Of a stretch of DNA of 20,266 nt, positions 1 to 18,183 are shown in pieces. The notes beneath the pieces are model-generated. The model worked only from the letters and a program-made list of their open reading frames with translations, searched no databases and was not told where the DNA came from. The position numbers were made by a program, and so were the translations under genes. The DNA lies in the IMG/VR virus record IMGVR_UViG_3300005935_005922, positions 1 to 20,266 of that record. The stretch is one strand, 5' to 3'. This DNA comes from a virus. Each line of letters begins with the position of its first letter. The stretch's first letter is position 1.

Positions 1-896
1 GCATCAAATTGATGATTTCCATCTATAAAGACAAGATCTAAACTTTTATCTTCATACATTGTAGATGCTTCAACTGAAGTCATTCCTTTAACTTTCTCAA
101 GTTTTCCCTCTAATTTTTTCTCTTTTGGTTGTTTGCTAGTAGAAATATCGACAAAAACATATTTATCCAAATTACAATGTTCAAGTAAATATTTTGTAGT
201 TTTACCATTATCAATTCCTATTTCTGCTATAGTCTTAAACTTATTTCTAGTAATCAAGGTTTTTAAAGTTTCCCACCTTGATGCACATCTCGTTTTAACT
301 TCAAATTTTCTAGCAACATCCTCGTAATCAAGATCTTCTATTTTTCTAGCTATACCCAAACCATAATTTGGATGTGTGCCAAGAGTTTCAAATCTTTTAT
401 CACTCTTTAATTTCAACCAAGCACCAGCATTCCCCATATCAACAATATCATGAATAAATACATAACCCCAACCACAACCATTTAATTTTGGATAAATTAA
501 TTCAATTTCATGTAAAACTGCTTCTGTTGTATGCTCGCCATCTAAAAAAGCAAAATCAATCCTATCCATAAAATCAATCTTTTTAATTTTCTTTGTATCA
601 GCACAAATAATCTTATGGGGGAGATTTGCTTTAGTTAATTCCTCATCTGCTTTTTTACAAGAATTAGGATCATTGTCAACTCCATAATACATTCCTCCAC
701 TCATCTTAGCAGCATAGGCAAAATAATAAGTTGAATAACCTCTTTCGATTCCCACCTCTAAAATATTCTTGAAATCATGTGCTCTTACAAAAGTATACAT
801 TAGAGGAGGATAATATGGTAAAGTTGAGTTAGCTTCATCCATAAAATGATTACTAAAACCCGATAATAGTTTGTCTTTTTTCCATGCTTCAATCAT
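1..896 (-). CDS. Tandem double class I SAM methyltransferase, partial
   Basis: This frame stays open from an ATG at 896 to the left edge, so the C-terminus is missing (298 complete codons visible). It contains two consecutive class I methyltransferase units of the Methyltransf_24 type. Unit one has motif I ILEVGIERGYST and an acidic FLDGEHTTEA strand; unit two repeats the pattern with IAEIGIDNGKTT and FIDGNHQ. Such domains methylate small molecules or sugars using S-adenosylmethionine, so a role in capping or tailoring the glycan made by the neighbouring genes is plausible, but the substrate cannot be told. It lies 23 nt downstream of the cytidylyltransferase-LicD gene and is probably co-transcribed with it. 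The family call is firm; the function is inferred from context only. Confidence 0.8.
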   Translation of the reverse strand, partial: MIEAWKKDKLLSGFSNHFMDEANSTLPYYPPLMYTFVRAHDFKNILEVGIERGYSTYYFAYAAKMSGGMYYGVDNDPNSCKKADEELTKANLPHKIICADTKKIKKIDFMDRIDFAFLDGEHTTEAVLHEIELIYPKLNGCGWGYVFIHDIVDMGNAGAWLKLKSDKRFETLGTHPNYGLGIARKIEDLDYEDVARKFEVKTRCASRWETLKTLITRNKFKTIAEIGIDNGKTTKYLLEHCNLDKYVFVDISTSKQPKEKKLEGKLEKVKGMTSVEASTMYEDKSLDLVFIDGNHQFD

Positions 897-919: not shown

Positions 920-2008
920 TTATTTATTTTTTGAACTAGAACTTGATAGACTAAATGAAGAACTAGAACTACTAGAATTTGAATTCGAACTTGAAGATTT
1001 AGAATCTAAACATCGACTACAAATTTCTCTAAGAGGATCAAAGTCCTTAGTCCAAAGTCTTGGACGTTTATATCCCCAGACCTGTGCACCAGATGGAATC
1101 CCCCAATTATGATACCACAAATCTAGCAATTCCTTGTAATGATTTGGAATTGAAAATTTCTTTCCCCAAAGTTCAATTTCTTGCAAAGGTTCAAAAAACT
1201 TTGCATCGTTTTCCCAGATACAATATTCTCTTATGCTAGATCCTTCAACTTTTCTAGTCGTATACCACATAGTTCGCTTATCTTTTATTTTGAAAAGAAA
1301 AATAAGTTCAGTCTTCACATTTCTATGTAGTAAAAACCAAATTGGTCTTCTTATGGTTTCACAGGGAAATTGAAAAGATTCACCACTACCAACTAAGAAC
1401 CCAGCCTTTTTAAAAGCATCATATATTTCAATACTTCTATGGATATCTTCTCCATACAATCCAAGATCAATATCATGATCGGTCAATATAATATTTTTCT
1501 CTCTAATGCCACCTAACAATGTTCCACACATTAGAAAAAACTTGATTCCTAATTTATCAAAAACTTCTTTTATTTCAAGCAAATCTAATTTTGCTTTTTC
1601 CCTAAAATTCATTTTAACACTTTGTTCAGTCATATGTTTAAAAGCTATTTCTTTAATTTTTGTACTACTTTGTTCCTCGCAATAAATAATATCTAATTTT
1701 TTGCAATTAGCCCTTTTAATTGCATCAAGTTCTCTTGGTTCAAAACCATCACCAGAAGCCACAAAATCAGGTTTAAATTTTTCAAGATTTTCAAAACAAT
1801 CTACACCATTTTGTTTGACTACCATTTTGACTTCTGGTATAGCCTCCAACATTTCCTTTCGTTGTTCATATGGAATTACTGTTTTTTTATAAGTAGGAAC
1901 ATCCAATAAACCAATTATCACTTCGCCAACTTCAGCACATTGCCTTATTGCTCTTAAGTGACCGATGTGAAATAAATCTCCTGTAAATGGTAAATATACT
2001 ACTGACAT
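920..2008 (-). CDS. Bifunctional HEP-type cytidylyltransferase / LicD-family transferase with poly-Ser tail
   Basis: Residues 1-130 form an HxGH nucleotidyltransferase: HIGH at 14-17, and SSTKI at 114-118 matching the usual (S/T)ST-x-I motif. Residues 140-330 resemble LicD transferases, with CGTLLGG at 161-167 and DHDID at 177-181. Residues 336-362 are an almost pure serine tail interrupted by Asn, Phe, Leu and Lys. Known biology: the Fom1 cytidylyltransferase domain of fosfomycin synthesis activates 2-hydroxyethylphosphonate to its CMP ester, and LicD enzymes move phosphocholine-type groups from CDP donors onto glycans. Inference: this protein makes CMP-HEP and transfers it. It overlaps the upstream Fe-ADH stop by 10 nt. 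Other possible substrates are phosphoethanolamine or glycerol phosphate. The domain calls are strong; the substrate is moderately supported by the PepM/Ppd/Fe-ADH neighbours. Confidence 0.85.
   Translation of the reverse strand: MSVVYLPFTGDLFHIGHLRAIRQCAEVGEVIIGLLDVPTYKKTVIPYEQRKEMLEAIPEVKMVVKQNGVDCFENLEKFKPDFVASGDGFEPRELDAIKRANCKKLDIIYCEEQSSTKIKEIAFKHMTEQSVKMNFREKAKLDLLEIKEVFDKLGIKFFLMCGTLLGGIREKNIILTDHDIDLGLYGEDIHRSIEIYDAFKKAGFLVGSGESFQFPCETIRRPIWFLLHRNVKTELIFLFKIKDKRTMWYTTRKVEGSSIREYCIWENDAKFFEPLQEIELWGKKFSIPNHYKELLDLWYHNWGIPSGAQVWGYKRPRLWTKDFDPLREICSRCLDSKSSSSNSNSSSSSSSFSLSSSSSKNK
930..1011 (-). repeat. Serine-codon repeat (TCN/AGY alternation) at the 3' end of the LicD fusion gene
   Basis: On the minus strand the DNA is a degenerate hexamer repeat of the TCAAGT / TCTAGT kind, reading Ser-Ser. 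TCN and AGT codons are mixed, so the run is not a simple homopolymer. It encodes the C-terminal serine tail, is closely similar in layout to the repeat at 11763-11852, and looks prone to length variation. Confidence 0.75.
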
Positions 2009-2826
2009 AATAATTTACAAATATCTTTTTCTGTTAATTTTAATGGAATATTGCTTGCCCTGGAACTCTCAAATGCTTCTTCCACCACATCTTTATCAAT
2101 CCTTTTAAGAATTGGAACTATATCCACATTCAAATTCTTAATTAGATTCTCAACTTCTTTATAAGGAATCTGTTTAAAATTAAAGAGTTTCATAAAAATA
2201 GGCAAGGTTGACACGCAAGCAATTCCATGTGGAACCCCATAATTAATTGTTAAATAATAAGAAATTGCATGACAAATGGAAGTTCTTGTTATATTAATTG
2301 CCTTGCCAGAAAAATGAGCCGCTTCTAACATTTTCATTCGGAAAGTTTCATTTTTGGGATTTTTGTAAGAAAGCAATAAATATTCCATTGTTAATTCAAA
2401 TGATATTCTTGAAAATTCCTTACTTTCTTTTGTAGCATTTGGAGACCAATAAGATTCGATTGCCTGTGACAGTGCATCTAAACCACTCGAGGCAGTGACT
2501 TCAGATGGACAGGAAACAACTAATTTTGGATTCAATTCATATTCCTCTGGTATTAGCTTTTCATCTTCTAAGCTAATTTTCTTACCATCTTTTATAAAAA
2601 CTGCGAATTTGGTGGCTTCAGATCCTGTTCCAGCTGTAGTAGGGATAGCCTTGTGGGGTATTTTTAAATAAAAAGAAATATACTTTGCTGTATCAATTGA
2701 CGACCCACCACCAACTGAAACCACTTTGGTTGCCCCCTTGGCTTTTTTTAACATTCTTTCGGCGAATTTAATCGTTGGATTTGAGAGAACTTCCTTATAA
2801 TTTATATAGAAAATTTTACTTGGCAT
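1999..2826 (-). CDS. Iron-type alcohol dehydrogenase, probable phosphonoacetaldehyde reductase
   Basis: The Fe-ADH fold is shown by the nucleotide-binding GGGSSID at residues 39-45, TTAGTGSE at 63-70 and metal-site positions D117, H186 and H200. The usual second ligand (His in DxxxH) is Gln121, in the context DALSQAIESYWS, which I recall as typical of phosphonate-cluster Fe-ADHs. Those enzymes reduce phosphonoacetaldehyde to 2-hydroxyethylphosphonate with NAD(P)H. At 275 residues it is about 100 shorter than most Fe-ADHs; the first Rossmann strands are largely missing, and a TAG eight codons upstream rules out an earlier start. It lies just after the terminator that closes the PepM/Ppd operon and has its own -10 element. 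Group III Fe-ADH membership is secure; substrate assignment rests on the neighbours. Confidence 0.85.
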   Translation of the reverse strand: MPSKIFYINYKEVLSNPTIKFAERMLKKAKGATKVVSVGGGSSIDTAKYISFYLKIPHKAIPTTAGTGSEATKFAVFIKDGKKISLEDEKLIPEEYELNPKLVVSCPSEVTASSGLDALSQAIESYWSPNATKESKEFSRISFELTMEYLLLSYKNPKNETFRMKMLEAAHFSGKAINITRTSICHAISYYLTINYGVPHGIACVSTLPIFMKLFNFKQIPYKEVENLIKNLNVDIVPILKRIDKDVVEEAFESSRASNIPLKLTEKDICKLLCQ

Positions 2827-2861
2827 AATTTTTGATTTATAATAGAACTAAATTTATTTAT

Positions 2862-2870
2862 ATTATATCA
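2862..2870 (-). promoter_or_regulatory. Extended -10 promoter element for the Fe-ADH unit
   Basis: The minus strand reads TGATATAAT, an exact TGn-TATAAT extended -10. No good -35 lies 17 nt upstream, where terminator sequence sits. It would start a transcript about 30 nt before the Fe-ADH start codon, restarting transcription after the terminator at 2878-2908. Confidence 0.5.
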
Positions 2871-2877
2871 CATTTTT

Positions 2878-2908
2878 CTAAAAAGCTCTAATTTTTAGGG
2901 CTTTTTAG
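2878..2908 (-). terminator. Rho-independent terminator of the sugar/phosphonate operon
   Basis: On the minus strand a 9-bp perfect stem CTAAAAAGC / GCTTTTTAG encloses an extra 4-bp CTAA/TTAG stem with an AAA loop. The five T residues after GC act as the U-tract. The TAA stop of the phosphonopyruvate decarboxylase beta chain lies inside the hairpin. The A-run/T-run symmetry means it could also work in the other direction. Confidence 0.7.
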
Positions 2909-3359
2909 TTTCTATATTTTTTCTAAAATCATCTGTTATTTGTTTACAAGTTTTATCTGGTCTTGGGGCTACATTTCCTCCTAGTTTTATATCTATTACT
3001 TTCATTGGCAACCAATATTTTATGGCTTCAAAACTAGTTGGTTGCTTACCTGTACTTTCTAGGCATTTATTATTCAAAACTACAATGTCCAAGTTTTTTG
3101 GTTTTTTGTCAAATATTGTTGCTATACTACCCAATTTCATCAATAAAGCACCATCACCTATTAAACATAAAACTTTCTTCTTAGTATTAAGAGCTAGTCC
3201 AAGCGATATAGATAACGAATGCCCCATAGAGCCCTGTAATATAAATACTCCTTTCTGTCGTTGTTTAAATACTTCCCTTCCTATTCTACCAAGGTCAGAA
3301 ATAATATAGGCATCTTTATGCTTATTTAATAAATCTGAAATTGCTTTTTCCCTTAACAT
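2895..3359 (-). CDS. Phosphonopyruvate decarboxylase, beta (TPP pyrophosphate-binding) chain
   Basis: This corresponds to the C-terminal half of single-chain phosphonopyruvate decarboxylases (Ppd/AepY) and to ComE-type beta subunits. It has GSMGHSLSISLGLAL, then the thiamine-diphosphate/Mg motif GDGALL...(N)N ending in VVLNN, followed by a QPTSF segment typical of the family. With the alpha chain it would decarboxylate phosphonopyruvate to phosphonoacetaldehyde, which pulls the unfavourable PEP mutase equilibrium forward. The ATG at 3359 is preferred; a TTG at 3371 is a possible longer start. The first codons overlap the alpha gene by 38 nt in another frame, which suggests translational coupling. 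The 3' end is embedded in a terminator. Confidence 0.85.
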   Translation of the reverse strand: MLREKAISDLLNKHKDAYIISDLGRIGREVFKQRQKGVFILQGSMGHSLSISLGLALNTKKKVLCLIGDGALLMKLGSIATIFDKKPKNLDIVVLNNKCLESTGKQPTSFEAIKYWLPMKVIDIKLGGNVAPRPDKTCKQITDDFRKNIETKKP

Positions 3360-3636
3360 ATTCTTGAACAAAATTACTTGCTTCTATGTGCCATTCTTCT
3401 TCTCTGCCGACCGATATTACCCAATTTACTGGTATTCCATAAGGGATTACTAAACTTGTTAAAGCATTCAAGGCATTCATAAATCCATCAGCTCCCATAA
3501 ACACTGTTCCAGTTTCTCCTGTAGCTAAATAGTACCCTACTACCATTCCAATGGCAGAACCCTCATCAGTGACTACAATATATTCTTTGCCACTTAACCA
3601 ATCAATTAATTTTGTTGTAGGTACACCTGCTATCAT
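3322..3636 (-). CDS. Phosphonopyruvate decarboxylase, alpha (TPP pyrimidine-binding) chain
   Basis: The 104 residues match the N-terminal half of Ppd: GVPTTKL at the start, then TDEGSAIGMVVGYYLATG, whose E25 is the conserved glutamate that activates the thiamine pyrimidine ring, then NALTSL and VGREEEWH. It starts in an ATGA overlap with the PEP mutase stop. It is unusually short: it begins right at the GVP turn and ends soon after the histidine segment, lacking the linker of single-chain enzymes and most of the length of ComD-type alpha subunits. It is either a naturally minimal two-chain enzyme or a trimmed, frameshifted ancestor. The family assignment is confident. Confidence 0.82.
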   Translation of the reverse strand: MIAGVPTTKLIDWLSGKEYIVVTDEGSAIGMVVGYYLATGETGTVFMGADGFMNALNALTSLVIPYGIPVNWVISVGREEEWHIEASNFVQEYVKGKSNFRFIK

Positions 3637-4391
3637 ATTAGTTTGAAAATATCTTCTATTGAAATTATTTCTCCCTTTCCTGCTAAATAATCCTGCATTC
3701 CCTTTATAGAAGCTCTCATTAAATGATTAGCATAAATTACATACTCAAAGGGATGTTTTTTTGGTAATCGATAAGTACTTGGTATCGCTACTAATGGAAT
3801 ATCTTTATATTTCTTTCTAAATTCCTTGGCAAACTCCATAACTTCTGAGCAATCTACTTGTTGTTTGGAATGTATCATTATTCCATCAGCTCCAGCTTTT
3901 ACATAAGCATCAGCTCTTATCAATGCTTCATATATTGAATGTTTAGCTATTAAAGACTCTACCCTAGCTATAATCATTATTCCTGATTTACTTGCCTCCT
4001 TAATCTTTTCACAGAATTTATCTACATCTTCTAAATTATGTTTGCCGTTTTTTAATAAGCTGTTTTGTTTTGGGAACGCTTTGTCTTCTATGATTAAAGC
4101 ATCAGCACCAGCATCAGCAAACCATTTAGCGTGATATCCGATATGTCCTCCACCAGTATCACAATCAACAAATATCAGTTTATCAGAAACCCTGCGAATT
4201 TCCCTGACTAAATCTACTCTTTCACTTAAAGATATTAACTCTGTGTCTGGTAATCCCTTTAAAGCTGAATGACATAAAGACGATACCCAGATACCATCAT
4301 AATCACTATTCTCTACCAATTTTGCTGATAATCCTGAATGGGCTTCTAGGATCCTAAGATAACTCTTCTTTTTAATTTTTTCAGATTTCAT
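3633..4391 (-). CDS. pepM: Phosphoenolpyruvate mutase
   Basis: It catalyses the rearrangement of PEP to phosphonopyruvate, the C-P bond-forming entry step of nearly all phosphonate biosynthesis. The diagnostic signature EDKxxxxxNS is complete (EDKAFPKQNS, residues 102-111) and separates PEP mutase from isocitrate-lyase-family lyases. Also seen are EAHSGLSAKLVE at 16-27, the metal-binding DCDTGGG at 76-82, ARVESLI at 142-148 and IPSTY near 203-207. At 252 residues it is somewhat shorter than typical, trimmed at the C-terminus. It sits between a UGD/WecC-like dehydrogenase (ATGA overlap at 4388-4391) and the Ppd alpha chain (ATGA overlap at 3633-3636), so PepM and Ppd are translationally coupled. 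This is one of the most secure calls in the window. Confidence 0.95.
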   Translation of the reverse strand: MKSEKIKKKSYLRILEAHSGLSAKLVENSDYDGIWVSSLCHSALKGLPDTELISLSERVDLVREIRRVSDKLIFVDCDTGGGHIGYHAKWFADAGADALIIEDKAFPKQNSLLKNGKHNLEDVDKFCEKIKEASKSGIMIIARVESLIAKHSIYEALIRADAYVKAGADGIMIHSKQQVDCSEVMEFAKEFRKKYKDIPLVAIPSTYRLPKKHPFEYVIYANHLMRASIKGMQDYLAGKGEIISIEDIFKLI

Positions 4392-5197
4392 AATCTTTTG
4401 AATCTCGCATTAGAACTTAATACTTCTTTAATTAATTCGGCATCATAACCAGCTATTTCGGCAAATTTAACTAAAGCCTTGGTGTCTTTTGGAAGACATT
4501 TTCCACCAAACCCAGGATTATTTTTGAAAACAAGAGTATGAGATTTTTCTACCTTTGGATCTAATGCCCAAGCCTCCCTTACCTCTCCATAATCAATTTC
4601 TAAAGCATCACAAATATTTTTCATTTCATTTGCCCAAGCAACTTTCATTGATCCCCAACAATTGCTAACATATTTTACCATTTCACTACTTTTGGCATCC
4701 ATAAATTTATAAGTTTTAAATGGTCCAAAAATAGGAAGAAGTAAATCATAAACATAATTTCTATCTTTAGAAGCACCTCCTAGAATTATAAACGGAGTTT
4801 TCAGAGCATCTCTATGGAACTCATAAGGACTCCAATATTTATTTTCACCTATAAACTCTGGACTAAATACTATTCTTTTATGATATTTTTTAATTAACAT
4901 ATCTATAGTTCCAGGAGGGACTGTAGATTTAATTATAATTACTGGAACATCTAACCAAGAAATAACCTCTTCTACTATTGAAATATCACAAGAACCATCT
5001 TCTTTTGAAAGTGTAGGTACACAAACAACTGCAAGATCGCAACGATTAATTTCTTCTTTAGAATTGGAATCAAAAGAGATATCATAGCGAAAGACTGAAT
5101 AAAGATCATTAGAACTCCAAAAAAGAACTTGAGCTTTGCCAACATAACCCTCTGAACCTATAACTCCTATTTTTTTTATTTTATTTAGATTCTTCAT
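4388..5197 (-). CDS. UDP-glucose/UDP-ManNAc 6-dehydrogenase-like protein lacking the C-terminal domain
   Basis: This belongs to the UGD/WecC family, which oxidises a nucleotide sugar twice at C6 to a uronic acid. It has an N-terminal Rossmann motif GVIGSEGYVG (11-20), KSTVPPGT, the SPEFIGEN segment, the conserved Lys about residue 185 in the central helix, and the catalytic cysteine about residue 234 in GFGGKCLPKD. The protein ends about 35 residues later, so the usual C-terminal nucleotide-sugar-binding domain of roughly 100 residues is absent. The start was set at the ATG at 5197 rather than further upstream because GxGxxG then falls at the usual position. It overlaps the GT9 gene by 17 nt. 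With WecB two genes upstream, UDP-ManNAc to UDP-ManNAcA is possible. Whether the trimmed enzyme is active is unknown. Confidence 0.82.
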   Translation of the reverse strand: MKNLNKIKKIGVIGSEGYVGKAQVLFWSSNDLYSVFRYDISFDSNSKEEINRCDLAVVCVPTLSKEDGSCDISIVEEVISWLDVPVIIIKSTVPPGTIDMLIKKYHKRIVFSPEFIGENKYWSPYEFHRDALKTPFIILGGASKDRNYVYDLLLPIFGPFKTYKFMDAKSSEMVKYVSNCWGSMKVAWANEMKNICDALEIDYGEVREAWALDPKVEKSHTLVFKNNPGFGGKCLPKDTKALVKFAEIAGYDAELIKEVLSSNARFKRL

Positions 5198-6197
5198 GTT
5201 TTTTATCAGTAAGTAATTTAATTTTCCCACCATCATAATAAGAAATCATTGCATCTGCAATATGAGAAGGCTTAATTGTCTCAAAACATCGTGGGACTTC
5301 TTCGCCATTTATTTCAACAAGATTAGGACATTTACCCTTTTCACCACCCAACCAACATCCGTCAAATTCCGCATGGGGACAACTTCCAACATTTGTCAAA
5401 AAACGAATCCAATTATACGACTGCCACCTTGGACCTTCTTTGCCTCCAGCAACACAAACCGCAGGTTGTCCAAATGCTGCTGATGCTACAAACTGTAGTG
5501 ATATAGGTCCAACTGTCCCATCTGCATGGTAAATTAATCTAATCAACTGACGTAAATCAGTTTTACCAATTAAATTTAGAACTCCTTTTAATTGAGGATG
5601 AATATGGTCCTTGTGACCAATTTGAACTATTTTCACTTTTCCCTTAAATCGCTCATTAAACAAATCAACTACTTCTTGCCATCTATGATATTGTTTAAGT
5701 GCATTATCTTGCTTGCGACCAGCATTCAAAACCCAAAATTGGCAATCATCATTAAATTCGCAATGAACCTGATTCCACCATCCCTTTTCTTCATCCGAAA
5801 TCCACAATTCAGGCCTTATCCCTGTTTTCTTAATAGGTACTCCAAGCTTCTTTTCCATATCATGTCTCCAAGCATCAGAAAAATGCAATCCATTCCAACC
5901 AGAAACATGGATTTCTGGGTAATCAATATTAAAAACTTCTACCTCTGGATCATTTTTATCCAACTGAGTTATATGGGGAGAATTTTCAAAAACTTCCATC
6001 GCTGGACATTCTATTGCTATCTCATAATTCGGATAACTCATAGCCAAATCACCAACTGCTCTTGTCCAAACAACTAAATCTCCAGGCGATTGACCATTTC
6101 TTAAAATCAATTTTCTCTTCCTATTTATAATCTCAGGATGGGCTTTAGCCCAATCATCCCAAGAAGTTTTGTAATCTATATAATTAACAGGACTCAT
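5181..6197 (-). CDS. GT9-type (ADP-heptose:LPS heptosyltransferase-like) glycosyltransferase
   Basis: The layout is that of GT-B fold family 9: an N-terminal SPGDLVVWTRAVGDL, a central linker with PELWIS, then a C-terminal half with NAGRKQDN...YHRWQEVVDLF, IVQIGHKDHIHP, LIGKTDLRQLIRLI and the conserved acceptor/nucleotide segment GPISLQFVASAAFGQPAVCV. GT9 enzymes transfer L-glycero-D-manno-heptose from ADP-heptose, which fits the HldE and HldD-like genes of this operon. A Cys-rich stretch follows near the C-terminus (CPHAEFDGCW, GKCPNL, RCFET). The start at 6197 is in an ATGA overlap with the WecB stop. No signal peptide or membrane segment is seen, so it would be cytoplasmic. The acceptor is unknown. 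Confidence 0.8.
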   Translation of the reverse strand: MSPVNYIDYKTSWDDWAKAHPEIINRKRKLILRNGQSPGDLVVWTRAVGDLAMSYPNYEIAIECPAMEVFENSPHITQLDKNDPEVEVFNIDYPEIHVSGWNGLHFSDAWRHDMEKKLGVPIKKTGIRPELWISDEEKGWWNQVHCEFNDDCQFWVLNAGRKQDNALKQYHRWQEVVDLFNERFKGKVKIVQIGHKDHIHPQLKGVLNLIGKTDLRQLIRLIYHADGTVGPISLQFVASAAFGQPAVCVAGGKEGPRWQSYNWIRFLTNVGSCPHAEFDGCWLGGEKGKCPNLVEINGEEVPRCFETIKPSHIADAMISYYDGGKIKLLTDKKHEESK

Positions 6198-7279
6198 TGT
6201 TTTTTTCTTAAAATTTTCACAATTCTTTTGGCAGTCTTGCCATCCCATAACTCAGGAACTCGACCCTTCTTATATTTTCCCTTTAAAATTTTATTGATCT
6301 CCTTTAATGTTTTTTCCTTATTATCACAAAGAACATTCGTTCCCTGAGTAATAGTAATTGGTCGTTCAGTATTTTTCCGTAATGTTAAACATGGAATCCC
6401 CAAAAATGTAGTTTCTTCTTGAATACCTCCACTATCTGTCAAAACAATCTTAGCTTGAGAAATTAAAGCTAAAAAATCAAAATAACCAAGAGGCTTAATA
6501 ATTCCCAAATCTTTGATTCCACAATCTTCTAATTCAAGAATTTTTTGAGTCCGAGGATGAATTGGAAAAATTATCTTTATTTTACTTTCGATTTCTGTAA
6601 AAAGATTCAAAAAATATCCCAAATTCTTTAAATTATCAACATTCACAGGACGATGCAAAGTCAAAACAGCATAATTCTTTTTTCTTAAATCTAATTTTTT
6701 AAGAATCCTTGATTTTCGAATTCCAAGTTTCAAACTTTTCAAAGAATCAATTGCTGTATTGCCTACTAAATGAATTTTTTCTTTTGAAATTCCTTCTTCT
6801 AAAAGATTTTTGACCCCACTCGGCTCAGTAACAAACAATAAATCAGAGATATGATCGGTAAGTCGTCTATTTATCTCTTCGGGCATCGATGTATCAAAAC
6901 TCCTCAATCCTGCCTCAATATGAACCACAGGAATATGTAATTTAGCAGCAACTAAAGCTCCAGCTAAAGTTGTATTAGAATCACCTACTACAACAACAAA
7001 ATTCGGTTTTCCTTTTAAAAGAACTGGCTCCAATCTTTTCATTATTTCTGCTGTTTGGAAAGCATGTGAACCACTACCAACTTTTAAATCATAATTGGGT
7101 TTAGGAATGTTCAACTCTCGAAAAAAAACTTTAGACATCTCATAATCATAATGCTGACCTGTATTAACTAACATCGTTTTTATTTGATGATGCTTTTTCG
7201 CCTCTTTCACGAAAGAAGCAATTTTTATAATGTCAGGCCTTATTCCTGCTACACAAAAAATTCTTAGTTTATAATCCAT
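6194..7279 (-). CDS. wecB: UDP-N-acetylglucosamine 2-epimerase (non-hydrolysing)
   Basis: A full-length (361 aa) WecB/MnaA-type enzyme interconverting UDP-GlcNAc and UDP-ManNAc. Characteristic segments: AGIRPDIIKIA near the N-terminus, NTGQHYDYEMS, VVGDSNTTLAGALVA, HIEAGLRSFDTSMPEEINRR (the substrate-binding core), LVGNTAIDSL, TLHRPVNVDN, HPRTQK and TDSGGIQEET. It overlaps the SWIM gene by 11 nt upstream and the GT9 gene by 4 nt (ATGA) downstream. The product could feed the UGD/WecC-like dehydrogenase to give UDP-ManNAcA, an acidic sugar. No key motif is missing. Confidence 0.92.
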   Translation of the reverse strand: MDYKLRIFCVAGIRPDIIKIASFVKEAKKHHQIKTMLVNTGQHYDYEMSKVFFRELNIPKPNYDLKVGSGSHAFQTAEIMKRLEPVLLKGKPNFVVVVGDSNTTLAGALVAAKLHIPVVHIEAGLRSFDTSMPEEINRRLTDHISDLLFVTEPSGVKNLLEEGISKEKIHLVGNTAIDSLKSLKLGIRKSRILKKLDLRKKNYAVLTLHRPVNVDNLKNLGYFLNLFTEIESKIKIIFPIHPRTQKILELEDCGIKDLGIIKPLGYFDFLALISQAKIVLTDSGGIQEETTFLGIPCLTLRKNTERPITITQGTNVLCDNKEKTLKEINKILKGKYKKGRVPELWDGKTAKRIVKILRKKQ

Positions 7280-7478
7280 TGGTAATTTCTTTTATTCTTT
7301 CTAAATTTTCTAACGACTGATGTTGACGATTTAAAAATTTCCTAATTATATCTTTATGGTTACAATTTATTTCTCTCAATCCTGCTGGACAATTGCACTC
7401 TAATTTATTTCTTGTCTCCTGAACTATATAATATAAATCTTCTTTAGTTTTTGATTGAACTTCAAATCTTCTATTCAT
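7269..7478 (-). CDS. Small SWIM-type zinc-finger protein
   Basis: A 69-residue protein whose only recognisable feature is a CxC...CxH arrangement (CNCPAG, then CNH 12-14 residues on), the SWIM zinc-finger pattern. SWIM domains bind nucleic acid or protein partners and usually form part of larger proteins such as MuDR transposases or RNAP-associated factors; a free-standing one in a sugar operon is odd. The ATG at 7478 is preferred over a TTG at 7487. It overlaps the epimerase stop by 8 nt and the WecB start by 11 nt, so it is certainly translated with the operon if real. Function unknown; it might be a regulatory or scaffolding microprotein. Confidence 0.6.
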   Translation of the reverse strand: MNRRFEVQSKTKEDLYYIVQETRNKLECNCPAGLREINCNHKDIIRKFLNRQHQSLENLERIKEITNGL

Positions 7479-8259
7479 AATTTTCAAAATAATCTCTTAT
7501 GCCAGATTCGACCATATAATCTGGCTTGAATCCCCAATTAAGATTTGCCCTAGTAAAAGTTTGATACTTATCTATATAAGGATTTTCAATGAACCTGGGT
7601 TCAACCATGACTTCTAATGTTTGAATAACAATTTTCAGTATATCTCTGAAATCTGTTGCTACCCCAGTTCCCAAATCATAAATTCCACTTTTCATTTTTT
7701 CTGCCATCCTAAAACCCTTAATGATATCTTTGACATAAATAAAGTCCCTTTTATAATCACCTTTAAAAATAACAGGTCTCTCACCTTTTGAAATTTGTTC
7801 TTTCCACTGAGTAATTACACTAGCATCTTTTCCTTTTGGTTTTTCTTGTTGACCATAACAATTAAATGGTCTCAATCCAACAATTTCCATTTTGTCAAAA
7901 TATCTTTTTGCCATTTCGTCAATCATTCTCTTAGATTCACTATAAGCATTTAAAGATCCTTTTCCATTTCCATAAACACTAGCACTTGATGCATAAATTA
8001 ATCTTATTTTGTTATCAAAAGCATATCTTAAAACATTCAAAAACCCCATAATATTATTCCTATACATTTCCATATCATCAGGATATGTTGTACTAGTATT
8101 TGCTGCTAAATGATAAATCATATCAGGTTTCTCTCTTGGAATAAATCCAAGAGAAACATCTGAATTAAATAATTCAATATTTTCTTCTCTATTCTTTAAT
8201 AATGTTTCAAGAAGATTAGAGCCAATAAAGCCCTGACCTCCTGTAATTAAATATTTCAT
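7471..8259 (-). CDS. HldD-like NAD-dependent epimerase (ADP-heptose 6-epimerase candidate)
   Basis: An extended SDR enzyme: GGQGFIG at residues 7-13 binds NAD(P), SSASVYG supplies the catalytic Ser region, and Y106xxxK110 (YSESK) is the catalytic pair. Several stretches recall HldD (ADP-L-glycero-D-manno-heptose 6-epimerase) rather than generic GalE: RPFNCYG followed by an ASVITQW segment, KRDFIYVKDI, YDLGTG and the C-terminal KYQTFTRANL, which parallels RYQAFTQADL of HldD. The substrate is inferred from this likeness and from the HldE-type neighbours; an NDP-sugar 4-epimerase or dehydratase is the alternative. The start is the ATG at 8259, in an ATGA overlap with the cupin-HAD gene. 262 residues, slightly short. 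Confidence 0.8.
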   Translation of the reverse strand: MKYLITGGQGFIGSNLLETLLKNREENIELFNSDVSLGFIPREKPDMIYHLAANTSTTYPDDMEMYRNNIMGFLNVLRYAFDNKIRLIYASSASVYGNGKGSLNAYSESKRMIDEMAKRYFDKMEIVGLRPFNCYGQQEKPKGKDASVITQWKEQISKGERPVIFKGDYKRDFIYVKDIIKGFRMAEKMKSGIYDLGTGVATDFRDILKIVIQTLEVMVEPRFIENPYIDKYQTFTRANLNWGFKPDYMVESGIRDYFENYE

Positions 8260-8882
8260 ACTTTTATTATATGACAATTTGGACAAAGTTTTTCTAAAGC
8301 AACAATTACTTTTGGACTATCTTCAAAATATTCTTCGATTCCTAGCCTATTAATCATTTGAGATTTCCACTCAATTTCTCGTTCAATTGTTTTTTCGTTC
8401 AAACTAATCGGATTGAAATAAACTGGATGATTTTTTCTAGTTTCTTCATCAACTTTTTCTATCTCATCAATAGTTCTACTTGTAATCACAGGTGCACCTT
8501 TCTGAGGTCGTATTCCAGCCTTAATGACACCATCATAGTCATAAGCTTGAAACAAGTGTGCCTTACCTGACATATACTTCCTGTAAGAATCTTTTTCATC
8601 ATGATGAGAAGAAAATTCGATAATTTGAGCATTCGTCAAACCAGTAAAACGATGCCAAGTATTTGGTTGAATGTGGACTGAATCTTCTGGCTTCATTATC
8701 CATTTCTTATCATCAACTTCCATTAATATCTTTCCTCTAATGAGATAAAAAACTTCATCTTTCTTTTTATGACAATGAAGACTACAGCGATATCCCCTAT
8801 TGAGAATAAGTTTCTTTCCACAATAATCTTCATTCCATATCCACTTTTCCTTACCCCAAACTTTTTCAACTTCTTTAATCAT
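8256..8882 (-). CDS. Cupin domain fused to a HAD-superfamily phosphatase
   Basis: Residues 1-100 are a cupin like the C-terminal part of type II phosphomannose isomerases: H36, H38 and E43 followed by YLIRGK, then H77. Residues 110-208 carry the HAD phosphatase motifs in order: DYDG at 115-118 (nucleophile), VITSR with S135 (motif II), K173 (motif III) and EDSP at 187-190 (motif IV acidic pair). Inference: the HAD domain could hydrolyse a sugar phosphate, and because the HldE kinase and nucleotidyltransferase flank it, the D,D-heptose 1,7-bisphosphate phosphatase (GmhB) step is the obvious gap to fill. It has 4-nt overlaps with both neighbours. The cupin's role (sugar isomerisation or binding) is unknown. 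Confidence 0.75.
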   Translation of the reverse strand: MIKEVEKVWGKEKWIWNEDYCGKKLILNRGYRCSLHCHKKKDEVFYLIRGKILMEVDDKKWIMKPEDSVHIQPNTWHRFTGLTNAQIIEFSSHHDEKDSYRKYMSGKAHLFQAYDYDGVIKAGIRPQKGAPVITSRTIDEIEKVDEETRKNHPVYFNPISLNEKTIEREIEWKSQMINRLGIEEYFEDSPKVIVALEKLCPNCHIIKV

Positions 8883-9661
8883 TGATTTAATTCTCTTAAA
8901 GTAATAGCAGAAGTTCCAAAACGAGAAATAACAATTCCAGCAGCTTTATTAGCAAGCTCCATCATTTTTTGTGTATTTGTCAAGCCAATCGCTAAACAAT
9001 ATATAAGAACTGCTATTACTGTATCTCCTGCACCAGATACATCAATAACTTCTTTTGTGATAGCAGGAACATTCATTTTAAATTCTCCATCTTTATAATA
9101 ATTAATTCCTTTTCCACTTTGAGTAATAAAAGCTTGAGGAAAATTCTTATTTTCAGCTTCTTCATACTCTTTTTTGTTAATCTTTAAAATCTGAGTTCCC
9201 TCAAAGACTGATAAATCTTTCTTTTTAGTATCAACAATCGTTGCTTTTCCACCTTTGATAATTCCCTTATTATAATCTATAAAAGCAATAATATCAAATT
9301 CTGAAAATGATGGATACTCCATATTAGCCAAATCTTCTTCTCGATAAACTTTTGGTTCATCCACCCTTAAAAGTTGTTGCCTCAAAGCAGCAAATCTAGT
9401 TTTTACTAATGATACACAATTCTTTGGAGAAACAACAGGAAAGTTAAGCTCCTTTATATAATTTTCATCTACTATAGTAAATACAACTGGCTCAATTTCT
9501 AAACCAAATAAATTTTTAGCAACATTTAAAGCACCACCTGGACGAGTTTCAGTTGCTCCTACATCAAGAATTGGTACTGGGGCTTCTGGAGAAATTCTTT
9601 CTACTTCTCCAAGACAATACTTATCTAAAAAACTATCTCCAACTATTGCAACTTTTTTCAT
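8879..9661 (-). CDS. HldE kinase domain-like PfkB sugar kinase (D-glycero-beta-D-manno-heptose 7-phosphate kinase)
   Basis: A PfkB/ribokinase-fold kinase equivalent to the N-terminal domain of HldE/RfaE. Matches in order: GDSFLDKYCLGEVERISPEA, GGALNVA, RQQLLRVD, DYNKG, the DVSGAGDT anion-hole and catalytic-base motif (D207-T214, base D213) and the AAGIVISRFGTSAIT end. It would phosphorylate D-glycero-D-manno-heptose 7-phosphate at C1. At 260 residues it is clearly shorter than the HldE kinase domain (about 310), with shortening between GGALNVA and the Arg-Gln-Gln motif. Its nucleotidyltransferase partner domain is encoded by the upstream gene, so HldE is split and domain order is swapped. Overlap with neighbours is 4 nt on each side. 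Confidence 0.88.
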   Translation of the reverse strand: MKKVAIVGDSFLDKYCLGEVERISPEAPVPILDVGATETRPGGALNVAKNLFGLEIEPVVFTIVDENYIKELNFPVVSPKNCVSLVKTRFAALRQQLLRVDEPKVYREEDLANMEYPSFSEFDIIAFIDYNKGIIKGGKATIVDTKKKDLSVFEGTQILKINKKEYEEAENKNFPQAFITQSGKGINYYKDGEFKMNVPAITKEVIDVSGAGDTVIAVLIYCLAIGLTNTQKMMELANKAAGIVISRFGTSAITLRELNQ

Positions 9662-10734
9662 GATATATAACCTCCTTTTATTTTTGGTAAATTTTTATCA
9701 AAAGAACGACCTTTAATCTCTTGAATTAATCTAGTGGTCGAATGATGTTCCAGTGTCGGAATAATCACTATTTGCCCACCATAACTTTCTACAAACTCAT
9801 GACCTATTACTGTCTTTCTAGTATAATCACTACCTTTTATCACTATATCTGGTTTTACCTTTTTCATTAAACGCAAAGGATTAAGTTCGTCAAAAATTTC
9901 AACCTTATCAATATATTTTATAGATTCAAGTAATTTCTTTCTCTTTTCTTGATTATTAATGGGCTCTCTTTTTATTTTAGTAGCTGATCTATCTGAATTC
10001 AAGCCCACTATCAATATATCACCAAGTTTTTTGGCTTTTTCGAATAAATAAATATGTCCAACATGAATCAAATCAAAAACACCATTTACAAACACAACTT
10101 TTTCCTTTCTATATAAAGCACTATAAATATCCTTTCTTACCCCACACTCAACCTCTGGATAGCCTGATTTGATAAGTTTAAATCCTCTTGTCTCAAAAAA
10201 TAAATCTAAACTTCTTTTTGTAAAAAAATGTAAATGCTCACCAGTGTCAAATTTAAAATGCTTCCATCCCATTAACTTTTTCCCTTCAGGAAGAATTGGA
10301 AGTGAAACATAAACATAATTAGTCTTTTTAAATAATTTATTTAATACCCGAAAATCTGGAAAATGTTCCAAAACATCACAGAAAAAAACCAGATCATAAA
10401 AATCATGCCTAATTCCAGTATATTTTATTGGAAATTTACCCAAATCAAAAGAATCAACTGTTATTCCTTTGGGAGCAAATTTGGTTAAAAAACTTGCTCC
10501 AGCCCCATAATCTAAAGCAATTTTGGGTTTTATTTCTTTAACAAAATCCCAGCGAACTTTATTAAGTATTTTCGCTGTTTTTTCATAAGCTTTTGAAATT
10601 GTTTTCCAATATTCTTTATTATATTGAAAATAAATATTTTTCTTCATATTGGGAATCTCTTTTAATGGTTGGGGGACATTGGAAAGGTCTAATCCTCCAA
10701 CCAATCTTGTATCCTTAAAACCTTTCCATCCCAT
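9658..10734 (-). CDS. Methyltransferase fused to an HldE-type nucleotidyltransferase
   Basis: Residues 30-200 are a class I SAM methyltransferase (motif I LDYGAGASF at 74-82, DVLEHF at 120-125, then a Met/Lys-rich region ending in EHLHFFTKRSL, as in Methyltransf_11/23 enzymes). Residues 212-345 are the HldE C-terminal adenylyltransferase: NGVFDLIHVGH with HVGH at 224-227, GLNSDRS, the KGSDY loop and STTRLI at 332-337. That domain would make ADP-heptose (or a related NDP sugar) from heptose 1-phosphate; the methyltransferase would modify a sugar. The start is uncertain: the first ATG (10734) lies inside a nested hairpin and has no Shine-Dalgarno, while ATG 10647 directly precedes the conserved domain and may be the real start. 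It is the first gene of the sugar operon. Confidence 0.85.
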   Translation of the reverse strand: MGWKGFKDTRLVGGLDLSNVPQPLKEIPNMKKNIYFQYNKEYWKTISKAYEKTAKILNKVRWDFVKEIKPKIALDYGAGASFLTKFAPKGITVDSFDLGKFPIKYTGIRHDFYDLVFFCDVLEHFPDFRVLNKLFKKTNYVYVSLPILPEGKKLMGWKHFKFDTGEHLHFFTKRSLDLFFETRGFKLIKSGYPEVECGVRKDIYSALYRKEKVVFVNGVFDLIHVGHIYLFEKAKKLGDILIVGLNSDRSATKIKREPINNQEKRKKLLESIKYIDKVEIFDELNPLRLMKKVKPDIVIKGSDYTRKTVIGHEFVESYGGQIVIIPTLEHHSTTRLIQEIKGRSFDKNLPKIKGGYIS

Positions 10735-10818: not shown

Positions 10819-11757
10819 TTAGTAATCGCTACTACCAGCATAAGCGTATTGCCACATTCCAAATCCTGCATTTCCACGCCAGTCTACTCCGAAGAAGATT
10901 TTCTTTCTCATAAAGTCTTCTTGAGTATTACCAGCGAGAGTACTGAATTTGATATCTTGCCTAAGTTGCAAGATAAGTGGTTTAACTATGCCCGAAGTGT
11001 CCATTACAGACCAAAAATTGGTAGGTACGTGAGGGGTAACATATAAATCAAGTGCACCTTGCATTACATTTGTAGCAAGCTTTTGTGCATTTGCAATCTG
11101 AGTTGGGAAATAGGTACTGTTAAGAATTTCTCGAGCCAAGAACTGATTAGTAGGGTGAACTACTAACAAGTTTGGTCGGATATCCATAATATTACCTTTG
11201 TCATCCACAAATTGCTGCATTGCTGTCATAGCTGCCTGAATGGCTACACTACTGAAAGTTGTTCCTGTAGCAATATTGGATTGAATCCCTGAACTACCTG
11301 AAGTATGAGCTGCTGAAAAGAAAGGTACACCATCATAACTTGTAATACCTTTTCCTGCAAACAATCCAGTTCCAGTGGTTAGATTACCTTGACCCAAAAG
11401 GGTGTAAACTAATCTTCCCCAGAACCTTCTTGCTTTATCAGCTAAATCTCTTACTCTGATACCAATTTGACCATATTGTTCATCATCAAGTGCATTACGA
11501 CCTACTGCGATAGTGCTTTCCCAGTCGTAATTCCTAATTGCGAATTCAAGTTCATTTAAACCTTCTGTGATTCTTTCATCTTTCCACTCTCTTAAATCAG
11601 GAACACCTCCGAGCCATGGATATGTCTCATTAGCTTTAGTTGATTTAATTTGAGTAGCAACTTTTTTCCATTCTGGTTCGTACATCTTCAACTGTTTCAT
11701 GAACTCCTTTTTCATTCCCGCAAGTAATAGATTAGGTATATCTGTTCTGACTAACAT
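10819..11757 (-). CDS. Major capsid protein, Mu gpT-like
   Basis: A 312-residue HK97-fold head protein resembling the Mu-like major head subunit (gpT). Typical traits: an N-terminal helix-rich segment (MLVRTDIPNLLLAGMKKEF), a conserved YPWLG...LREWKDERITEGL block, RVRDLADKARRFWGRL, a Gly/Thr/Ser-rich capsid E-loop-like stretch (GLFAGKGITSYDGVPFFSAAH), PNLLVVHPTNQFLAREIL and the C-terminal FFGVDWRGNAGFGMWQ. It assembles the icosahedral shell after scaffold proteolysis. It starts only 2 nt after the cement protein gene stop, so it is surely co-translated with it. No serine tail here, in contrast with the cement protein. Confidence 0.9.
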   Translation of the reverse strand: MLVRTDIPNLLLAGMKKEFMKQLKMYEPEWKKVATQIKSTKANETYPWLGGVPDLREWKDERITEGLNELEFAIRNYDWESTIAVGRNALDDEQYGQIGIRVRDLADKARRFWGRLVYTLLGQGNLTTGTGLFAGKGITSYDGVPFFSAAHTSGSSGIQSNIATGTTFSSVAIQAAMTAMQQFVDDKGNIMDIRPNLLVVHPTNQFLAREILNSTYFPTQIANAQKLATNVMQGALDLYVTPHVPTNFWSVMDTSGIVKPLILQLRQDIKFSTLAGNTQEDFMRKKIFFGVDWRGNAGFGMWQYAYAGSSDY

Positions 11758-11759
11758 AA

Positions 11760-12293
11760 TTATGAGCTTTCTGAACTAGAAGATGAACTTTTTGAACTTG
11801 AGCTGGATGAACTAGAACTGAATGAGCTTGAACTTGAACTTGAAGAACTCCAAGATTCTTCAACCCATCCCATTTGACAAGGACAACAAACGGCTACCTT
11901 GACTTTGGTTGCACTAATATATCCAACACAATTACCTACTAACATTCCATTGGTTGTAGATTGACGAAGAGCAACAGTATTGTCATCAAGTGCATATACT
12001 TGTCTGCCAACCCAAGCTTGGGAAGCACCAGTACATGGTAGTTGAAAAACACCATTTAGAAATACTCTTACGCCTCTATCTCCATTACTCTCTCCAGCGA
12101 CTGCAACTGAGTTTTCAACGGCAATTCCTGCCATATTGACTGCTGCAGAATCTGTAGCAGGCACTAACCAACCATTAGCGTTTTGGGTAACAACAATTGC
12201 TCCCTTGTAAACGGTACTAGCAGCTAGAATGGAATAGTAGATTATATCTCCATCTTGACGATTATCCTCATAAGCCGTTGTTAATACGGCCAT
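11760..12293 (-). CDS. Capsid cement/decoration protein (DUF2190-like) with poly-serine tail
   Basis: Residues 1-140 follow the DUF2190/cement-protein plan: an N-terminal acidic YEDNRQDGDIIYYSILAASTVYKG, then VVTQNANGWLVPATDSA, AGIAVENS, GVRVFLNGVFQLPCTG and GRQVYALDDNTVAL. These proteins trimerise on the outside of the head, placed here as usual beside the major capsid gene. Residues 147-177 are an added tail of nearly pure serine with one Phe, one Lys and one Glu; it resembles the tail of the LicD fusion at 920-2008. A Cys pair (CCPC) precedes the tail. Inference: an exposed serine-rich tail on a surface protein, in a genome full of glycan genes, is a natural candidate for O-linked glycosylation. 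No Shine-Dalgarno is visible upstream. Confidence 0.85.
   Translation of the reverse strand: MAVLTTAYEDNRQDGDIIYYSILAASTVYKGAIVVTQNANGWLVPATDSAAVNMAGIAVENSVAVAGESNGDRGVRVFLNGVFQLPCTGASQAWVGRQVYALDDNTVALRQSTTNGMLVGNCVGYISATKVKVAVCCPCQMGWVEESWSSSSSSSSSFSSSSSSSSSKSSSSSSESS
11763..11852 (-). repeat. Serine-codon repeat at the 3' end of the cement gene
   Basis: The minus strand is a degenerate run of AGTTCA, AGCTCA and TCAAGT hexamers that alternates TCN and AGY codons and encodes the 31-residue serine tail. The mixed codons suggest selection for the peptide rather than simple slippage, although length variation by recombination is likely. Confidence 0.75.
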
Positions 12294-16582: not shown

Positions 16583-16697
16583 CTTTCTTTACTTTAATTT
16601 CAAGAGGCCAACTACATTTTTTACAATGTGAGTATTCTTCTTTATTTTTTGTCCCACACTTAGGACATTTTTTTCTGTTCTCGTTTGCAGATGACAT
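16575..16697 (-). CDS. 40-residue zinc-ribbon microprotein
   Basis: A short frame starting at ATG 16697 and ending in TAA at 16575, coding CPKCG (residues 11-15) and HCKKC (24-28), a two-CxxC zinc-ribbon arrangement, followed by a basic end (KVKKDD). It overlaps the portal 3' end by 38 nt in another frame and the AAA+ start by 8 nt, which suits translational coupling inside the head operon. The paired CxxC knuckles make it more than a chance frame. Such ribbons bind Zn and often nucleic acid or protein; here an accessory to the AAA+ protein is a guess. Confidence 0.6.
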   Translation of the reverse strand: MSSANENRKKCPKCGTKNKEEYSHCKKCSWPLEIKVKKDD

Positions 16698-18183
16698 CTG
16701 TGAATTTTTCACCTAATGCGAAACATTTATCTTCAAAATTAGGTTGAATTTTTAAATTTAATAATTGCTCCCTAAGTTTTTTTGGAGTTTTAGGAGCATC
16801 AATCTCCATTTGGTCGGCTTTTGATTTCTTACCTTGCTCAAAAGCAAGAAGTGCTTTTTTATTTTCATCTTCTTTTTCATCTTCTTTTTCATCATTTTTC
16901 TTTCCAGTTCCATCGTTTACCCATTTCAATTTTAAAGTTTTCGATGCTTCTGTAATAACTTCTTGAATAAATCCATCAGGAAGATCATATCCAGTTTTCA
17001 TAATTTGACTAAATACATCTCTTAGGAATGCGACAGATGCATCTGCAAGTTTTTCAAATTTTATCTTAGGATAAACACCAGTTCCATAATTCCAATCTAT
17101 GAGAGGAGCTACTGCATAAGTATTAAGAGTGGCTTCCATTTGTTTCATTATAGATGCGATAGCTAAATCCACATATTGAGAAGCAGGAGTTCCTTTTCCA
17201 TAAGGATAAGCATATTTAACCTGATCTAAAACTTGAACTAATGCAGATTTTGACATTTGATTATTATGATGATTTATAAGTGGCATTGGATCAAATCCTC
17301 CCTCTCCACCTCTTTCAATCTCTAATTCAAGACCAGGTGGTAGTGTTACTCTAGTATTAACACCAATAGTATCTATTACTCCTTCTGCAGTTTCTCTTTC
17401 TTCTGCAGTGGTAGTTTGATTAATTTTTAAAATCTTTAAACCTGTAGTATCTATTTCAGCTTTTTTGTGAGAAATATAATATAGTTTGTGTTTTTTGTCA
17501 TAATGATAATAAGCAGTTTTTAAAATAGATTCTCCATAAAGCCAATGTTTTTCCTTTTGAAATGTAAACAACATACATTTCTCTGGAGGAATGGCAACAT
17601 CTTTTGTTTCTGATCCCAAGGTTGCACTCTGATAAACTCCCTTGAAACCACCATGTTCATCAGCTTTTAACTGAACAGTTTGAGCATCTCTTGGAGCCAA
17701 CTTTCTCCAACTAACCTTTCCCTTATACTTTCCTTTTTCAATAATCTGAGCAACCTTTTCATAGACTCGAAAACCTTCAAAAATACCTCTAGTCATATCG
17801 GCAACAATAAAAGGAAGCGGTGTAGTCATACCGCCCAAATTTGGAGGAGAAAAAAATGCAGTTTCGATAAAATCTCTTTCACCTTTATCACCTTCTGCAG
17901 GCTCTACATAAAGTGGAGTCGAAACTATTGGCAGAGTTAAAAGTCTAACTATTGCTTGAACTTCACCATCATTTCTTTGCATTTCAATATAATCTTCTGG
18001 TTTTAATTCATCAGGATTTTCTTCTGTTTCATAAGTACCGATAACTCCCTCCCTACCGATTCCTAACTCTTTTGTAAACTCAGCAATGCTCAATACCTTT
18101 TTAGTATCAACTTTTTTCTCTACTTCTTCCTTTTTTGGTTTTCTTTTTAAAAAACTAAAGAATGGCACAGTTTTAAAATGCAC
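16660..18183 (-). CDS. Portal protein, Mu gp29-like
   Basis: A 507-residue portal of the DUF935/gp29 type, forming the dodecameric DNA gateway of the head. Supporting features: EDYIEMQRNDGEVQAIVRLL, an Arg-rich MTRGIFEGFRVYEKV block, RKLAPRDAQTV, the PPEKCMLFTF and HWLYGESILKTAYYHYDKK segments, GVNTRVTLPPGLELEI, the QVLDQV/TPASQYVDLAIASIMKQ helix (tunnel-loop neighbourhood) and a charged C-terminal wing. The start is GTG at 18183, chosen because a strong GGAGG lies 10 nt upstream (18198-18194) and the gene has no good ATG nearby. A long structured leader precedes it. The 3' end overlaps the zinc-ribbon gene. Confidence 0.87.
   Translation of the reverse strand: MHFKTVPFFSFLKRKPKKEEVEKKVDTKKVLSIAEFTKELGIGREGVIGTYETEENPDELKPEDYIEMQRNDGEVQAIVRLLTLPIVSTPLYVEPAEGDKGERDFIETAFFSPPNLGGMTTPLPFIVADMTRGIFEGFRVYEKVAQIIEKGKYKGKVSWRKLAPRDAQTVQLKADEHGGFKGVYQSATLGSETKDVAIPPEKCMLFTFQKEKHWLYGESILKTAYYHYDKKHKLYYISHKKAEIDTTGLKILKINQTTTAEERETAEGVIDTIGVNTRVTLPPGLELEIERGGEGGFDPMPLINHHNNQMSKSALVQVLDQVKYAYPYGKGTPASQYVDLAIASIMKQMEATLNTYAVAPLIDWNYGTGVYPKIKFEKLADASVAFLRDVFSQIMKTGYDLPDGFIQEVITEASKTLKLKWVNDGTGKKNDEKEDEKEDENKKALLAFEQGKKSKADQMEIDAPKTPKKLREQLLNLKIQPNFEDKCFALGEKFTDVICKREQKKMS

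Follow-up and report, generated by a model that had tools for sequence, protein, structure and literature searches.

Can a tailed phage make a phosphonate of its own and attach it to a glycan? The question is raised by five open reading frames (ORFs), overlapping or separated by short gaps, at positions 920-4391 (minus strand) of the entire IMG/VR record IMGVR_UViG_3300005935_005922 (20,266 bases), hereafter the window. A sequence-only reading had taken these ORFs for an apparently complete pathway to activated 2-hydroxyethylphosphonate (HEP), consisting of a PepM with the full EDKxxxxxNS signature, a two-chain Ppd with the thiamine pyrophosphate (TPP) motif, an iron-type alcohol dehydrogenase (Fe-ADH) with a QAIESYWS variant and an HxGH cytidylyltransferase (CyT) fused to LicD, all on one strand and linked to capsid genes. 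The interpretation that we favour, as rather likely, is that of a phage-adapted cassette by which HEP would be made, activated and transferred by LicD to a glycan, whose likeliest location is the virion. Cells are known to synthesise phosphonates; here the genes for this occur in viruses, in a distinct shortened form and beside capsid genes, and no phage-borne phosphonate synthesis pathway was found in the open-licence literature, which is the part of the literature that was searched.

Scans of IMG/VR yield 48 viral contigs that carry PepM; this count includes the window and a few near-identical contigs, and one further scan contributed none. These contigs are compared with 80 cellular PepM loci, which were selected for the closeness of their PepMs to those of the phages, and the trees cited below are quick trees without bootstraps. 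Individual loci other than the window are denoted by L numbers.

The enzymes of the cassette

The ORF at 3633..4391 (minus strand) encodes PepM, a predicted phosphoenolpyruvate (PEP) mutase of 252 residues. It matches PF13714 (6.5e-42; 144 bits, cut-off 31.5) and TIGR02320 (6.3e-76), the PEP mutase model, which is by far its best NCBIfam model, and its loop IEDKAFPKQNS carries the signature that has been used together with PF13714 as the PepM criterion (PMC6697681). All 11 of the catalytic residues checked are retained (S46, D58, D85, D87, E114, K116, K120, N122, S123, R159 and H190, mussel numbering). A lyase or hydrolase in place of a mutase was considered and rejected, because this set is intact and TIGR02320 scores well above TIGR02321 and TIGR02317. 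In the PepM tree, the window protein groups with the viral PepMs of L006, L007, L008 and L011 (99%), away from the cellular PepMs. This placement and the retained signature speak against a lyase lacking mutase activity.

The two chains of the putative phosphonopyruvate decarboxylase are encoded on the same strand at 3322..3636 (PpdN, the N-terminal, alpha-like chain; 104 residues; TIGR03297, 1.9e-14) and 2895..3371 (PpdC, the C-terminal, TPP-binding, beta-like chain; PF02775, 2.1e-13; TIGR03297, 3.6e-30). They cover positions 9-95 and 171-289 of TIGR03297, respectively. PpdN, which is conserved in sister phages, also matches sulfopyruvate decarboxylase alpha (7.1e-10), and PpdC contains the TPP motif GDGALLMKLGS...NN; the longest PpdC ORF (up to 158 residues) begins at TTG, with an ATG at 3359. 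Both halves of the TPP enzyme are thus present in the window, as a variant of the single chain of approximately 370 residues that is usual in cells. Of 46 phage contigs with Ppd, 44 encode it as two short ORFs, whereas a single chain is found in 63 of 64 cellular loci; in the PpdC tree, a 97% branch has 39 of the 41 phage PpdCs on the same side.

The ppdN and ppdC ORFs overlap (window 3322-3371), and in nearly all phages the frame offset between them is identical; this junction looks like one ancestral split. A frameshift artefact was rejected, and a programmed frameshift is considered less likely, because the split is conserved among the phages while some junctions differ: approximately 0.7 kb with another ORF separates the halves in L010, a one-base gap is found in L016 and L019, and the frame offset is different in L015, L137 and L138. 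The intervening ORF of L010 (6660-7343) encodes 227 residues and has no Pfam match.

The compact Fe-ADH, a presumed phosphonoacetaldehyde reductase of 275 residues, is encoded at 1999..2826 (minus strand) and matches PF00465, PF25137 and TIGR03405 (1.8e-44), the phosphonate Fe-ADH (PhpC-like) model, which is its best in NCBIfam. It lacks approximately 55 N-terminal residues, and single-domain ADHs have a median length of 261.5 residues in the phages versus 368 in the cellular loci. Because the short form is common to the phages and the AlphaFold model of the window protein has a mean predicted local distance difference test score (pLDDT) of 95.7, a truncation artefact was rejected. Fold comparison (best TMq up to 0.92) places the model near 6jko (TMq 0.91), a sulfoacetaldehyde reductase from Bifidobacterium. 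The substrate of that enzyme is the compound in which a sulfonate replaces the phosphonate of phosphonoacetaldehyde, and it has the SQAIE variant in common with the window ADH; a search of BFVD gave no significant match to the fold. At the metal site, D117, H186 and H200 are invariant, and the usual second-ligand histidine is a glutamine, as in 6jko. A single branch of the ADH tree (Shimodaira-Hasegawa-like approximate likelihood ratio 92) separates all 34 phage ADHs from 26 cellular ADHs.

The last ORF of the cassette, at 920..2008 (minus strand), encodes a CyT domain (residues ~1-125; PF01467, 4.2e-11) fused to a LicD domain (~143-330; PF04991, 4.3e-6; 27.4 bits, cut-off 22.6) and a poly-Ser C-terminal tail. 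The CyT domain carries DLFHIGH (HxGH) and QSSTKIK (resembling (S/T)ST..K), and its best match in the PDB is the Fom1 cytidylyltransferase 5x3d. The LicD domain contains the motif GTLLG..R...D.DID, and its model is closest in fold to FKRP, among whose matching structures are complexes with CMP and CDP-ribitol. All of the enzyme features named from the sequence, including the QAIESYWS variant, are therefore found again by profile matches and motifs, and the trees set the phage ADHs and most of the phage PpdCs apart from their cellular relatives.

In the sister CyTs of L006, L007, L008 and L011, HxGH is replaced by TxGH. Fusions with the opposite domain order, LicD-CyT, occur at L155:9443-10411 and L157:9374-10429 and in L158 and L159; their CyT domains are related to the phage CyT-PepM, and no PepM was found within these four loci. 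Poly-Ser tails with mixed Ser codons end both the CyT-LicD protein (window 920-1010) and the cement protein (11763-11855), each on the minus strand; within the viral set, such a tail is otherwise seen only on one doubtful ORF. As a speculative hint, the tails may be acceptor or docking sites.

Recurrence beside phage head genes

All five activities are present in 40 of the 48 contigs, with CyT in 48/48, Ppd in 46/48 and an ADH match near PepM in 41/48. The main layouts are PepM-PpdN-PpdC-ADH-CyT (10 contigs) and a fused CyT.PepM-PpdN-PpdC-ADH (25 contigs). Phage hallmarks are verified in 19 of the 48, among them the window, the remainder being viral by IMG/VR classification only. A terminase gene (PF03237) is present in L002, L006, L010, L011, L013, L016, L102-L107, L109 and L150, gp23 in L109 and L150, and in L139 a terminase and a portal gene adjoin the cassette. 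The cassette is flanked by a capsid gene on one side and an SU10-type adaptor gene on the other in L002, L006, L007, L008, L011, L102, L107 and L108. The capsid family of these eight is phrog_267, unlike the gpT type of the window; head modules of different types therefore have the same cassette behind the capsid gene. The gene string that had been noticed beside capsid genes in one record is found in dozens of independent viral contigs, which is more than chance would give.

The genes of L133 gave no phage hallmark against PHROGs. Searches of 28 records for nucleocytoplasmic large DNA virus capsids and T4 portals gave no match, nor did the positive controls. The INPHARED PepM matches in L003 (MT837901) and L004 (MT836947) were rejected as phage sequences: their PepMs nest with those of Lachnospiraceae and Clostridia, and these 'Bacteriophage sp.' records are probably bacterial DNA.

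Between related phages, the ratio of nonsynonymous to synonymous substitution rates (dN/dS) is 0.06-0.49 where measurable, with some dS values near saturation, which supports purifying selection on a cassette that appears, from its sequence, to be catalytically intact. The split Ppd, the short ADH, the separation in the trees and the low dN/dS together argue that the cassette is not a recent, decaying acquisition.

A proposed route from phosphonopyruvate to a glycan

The reactions up to CMP-HEP are very likely, judging from the known families. PepM would turn PEP into phosphonopyruvate. Decarboxylation by the two-chain TPP enzyme would then give phosphonoacetaldehyde and so draw the unfavourable mutase reaction forward, after which the aldehyde would be reduced to HEP by the compact Fe-ADH and HEP joined with CTP by the Fom1-like CyT domain to give CMP-HEP. 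The same sequence of reactions has been described for PepM, Ppd, Fe-ADH and a Fom1-type enzyme (PMC6697681, PMC9381506), and the steps after phosphonate activation have been called enigmatic (PMC6697681). The fused LicD domain may then attach the phosphonyl unit to a hydroxyl group on a glycan made by the neighbouring nucleotide-sugar genes.

The LicD-type enzymes so far known, with which the window domain has its motif and fold in common, use CDP-activated donors (CDP-ribitol, CDP-choline), whereas the CyT fused to it here suggests a CMP-phosphonate. Because LicD is fused to a phosphonate-type CyT both here and, in reverse order, in L155 and L157-L159, CMP-activated HEP is probably its substrate, and the cassette suggests that LicD proteins can transfer CMP-activated phosphonates. 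Since the cassette is located among the head genes, its product would most likely end up in a glycan of the virion head or decoration protein; for the virion as such, our confidence is evenly balanced. We tentatively propose that tailed phages have evolved a compact pathway of their own and that a C-P-linked glycan, made by capsid-linked genes, covers their virions, possibly on the poly-Ser tails of the decoration protein.

Several observations weigh against this interpretation. LicD is near PepM in just 23 of the 48 contigs, the sister cassettes of L002 and L103 lack an ADH, and those of L018 and L020 carry an aminotransferase. The window PepM (255 bits) lies under the TIGR02320 equivalog cut-off of 319.55, as do the stand-alone PepMs of L002, L006 and L102, and is filed here as a divergent PepM; L126, whose phage PepM is fused, exceeds the cut-off with 383 bits. 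The window ADH is not full length and, with 152 bits, is under the TIGR03405 equivalog cut-off of 423.7, although a full-length cellular neighbour ADH (350.6) is also under it. The TM-score of the LicD model against FKRP is moderate, at only about 0.5. The pathway can be called complete in that the five activities are present, with the qualifications that Ppd and ADH have compact, phage-specific forms and that, in a few sisters, the ADH is missing or an aminotransferase is found instead. Of the proposal that the virus makes a phosphonate and attaches it to a glycan, the part up to activated HEP is well supported at the sequence level by the families, the intact residues and the recurrence, and the LicD substrate, the glycan acceptor and the virion destination are the conjectural part.

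The same chemistry could instead place the phosphonate on a glycan of the host envelope, for receptor masking or superinfection exclusion during infection or lysogeny. In cells, phosphonates serve mainly in the tailoring of the surface (PMC6697681, PMC8931226), licD in gut phages has been read as teichoic-acid tailoring against superinfection (PMC8008677), and the host could supply export. However, the cassette lies within the head-gene block, and a crude hydropathy scan of the cassettes reveals no multi-pass membrane protein that could resemble a flippase or polymerase; for these two reasons, a virion glycan is favoured and tailoring of the host surface is considered unlikely. A product other than HEP, such as 2-aminoethylphosphonate, is improbable. 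It would fit the class-V aminotransferase of L018 and L020 and the frequency of aminotransferases in cellular PepM loci, and the substrate range of a CyT cannot be told from its sequence, but an aminotransferase is near PepM in only 2 of the 48 viral contigs, compared with 41 for the ADH, and the closest PDB relative of the window CyT, Fom1, uses HEP. The aminotransferase gene lies at L018:7517-8623 and near 7499 in L020, beside a fused PepM and two LicD genes, and these two loci are possibly an aminoethylphosphonate variant.

Some phosphonates are free natural products, and in 25 of the 48 contigs LicD is not close to PepM; a free phosphonate, serving as phosphorus store, signal or antimicrobial and made without transfer, is nevertheless very improbable given the invariable presence of CyT, the CyT-LicD fusions and the glycan-gene neighbourhood. 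The short split Ppd, the short ADH and the 20-kb length of the fragment could also point to an artefact, either a chimeric contig of bacterial and phage DNA or decayed, functionless genes. This is scarcely credible, since the short forms, the gene order and the capsid linkage, including the capsid-adaptor placement, recur in independent contigs, dN/dS is well below 1, the G+C content is even, the genes share one strand and the ADH is modelled with high confidence.

If a HEP-bearing virion glycan is indeed made, phage particles would be an uncounted source of environmental phosphonate. Viruses, in which phosphonate-degradation genes are known (PMC13188868), are a possible contributor to these compounds and may build such molecules as cells do. 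Cellular phosphonates have been proposed to protect surfaces from phages and grazers (PMC8931226), and the cassette offers a testable route to phosphonylation of the virion or the host surface.

Gene neighbourhood and related systems

Nearly all genes of the window are on the minus strand, as are all those listed here. In the order of transcription, a Mu-type portal gene (16660-18183) is followed by genes for an AAA protein, an S78 protease, the cement or decoration protein with the poly-Ser tail (11760..12293; PF09956, phrog_1731), a possible acceptor, and the Mu gpT-type major capsid protein (10819..11757; PF10124, 1.5e-58; phrog_371, 1.5e-64), which confirms the linkage to capsid genes. Directly behind the capsid gene, the sugar genes encode a methyltransferase fused to a heptose-1-phosphate adenylyltransferase (HldE domain II; 9658..10734; PF13489, PF01467; TIGR02199, 2.9e-47), a heptose-7-phosphate kinase-like protein (HldE domain I; 8879..9661; TIGR02198, 1.3e-55), a sugar-isomerase-like cupin protein (8256..8882; PF07883, 7.1e-12), an NAD-dependent sugar epimerase resembling ADP-heptose 6-epimerase (7471..8286; PF01370; TIGR02197, 5.1e-56), the UDP-GlcNAc 2-epimerase WecB (6194..7279; PF02350, 9.1e-109; TIGR00236 above cut-off), a protein without assigned family (5181..6248) and a nucleotide-sugar dehydrogenase of the UDP-glucose/GDP-mannose family (4388..5236; PF00984, PF03721, TIGR03026). 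The 5181..6248 protein has no sequence match in Pfam or the PDB and resembles a glycosyltransferase of the heptosyltransferase type by eye only. The PepM, PpdN, PpdC, Fe-ADH and CyT-LicD genes follow, and then a methyltransferase-like gene (3..896; PF13578) cut by the record end. The Faecalibacterium phage FP_Mushu has a related capsid protein (35.6% identity), and its head adaptor gene directly follows the capsid gene, where the window has the sugar and phosphonate block.

Cellular phosphonyl-tailoring clusters (PMC6697681) and marine pepM clusters (PMC8931226) likewise combine PepM, Ppd, Fe-ADH, a PF01467 CyT, LicD-like proteins and glycan neighbours; the phage cassettes differ in the two short Ppd chains, the shorter ADH and the capsid linkage. 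Fom1 of the fosfomycin pathway is a CyT-PepM fusion, which is also found in many sister phages, whereas in the window PepM is a separate protein and LicD is the fusion partner of CyT; neither an epoxidase nor further fosfomycin genes were recognised there. The sulfopyruvate decarboxylase ComDE is also a two-chain TPP decarboxylase (TIGR03845/TIGR03846, both matched in the window), but the window chains match TIGR03297 better and adjoin pepM. Borg elements of methane-oxidising archaea carry a PepM-cytidylyltransferase fusion on a virus-like element (PMC12660748); Borgs are not tailed phages, and that study describes no two-chain Ppd/ADH cassette beside capsid genes.

Among 50,697 phage records, only that of the cultured Vibrio phage Va2 (MW073017, L005) has a PepM annotated as such. 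Like the window, it has PepM-like and Ppd-like genes, but its PepM is 31% identical to that of the window, its TPP enzyme is a single chain, and the annotation of the final 43 kb of its record lists no ADH, CyT or LicD. The divergent PepM and Ppd-like genes (L005:3089-4189 and 7890-9194) flank ribonucleotide reductase genes, and Va2 is a possible laboratory model.

A B12-binding radical SAM protein is encoded in the gene block of L002 (3349-4842) and L006 (4077-5603) and is possibly a methylase of the glycan or the phosphonate. No RNA family was found in the window, where promoter-like and terminator-like counts are at chance level, and an inverted repeat of 14 pairs lies at 2878-2908, between ppdC and the ADH gene.

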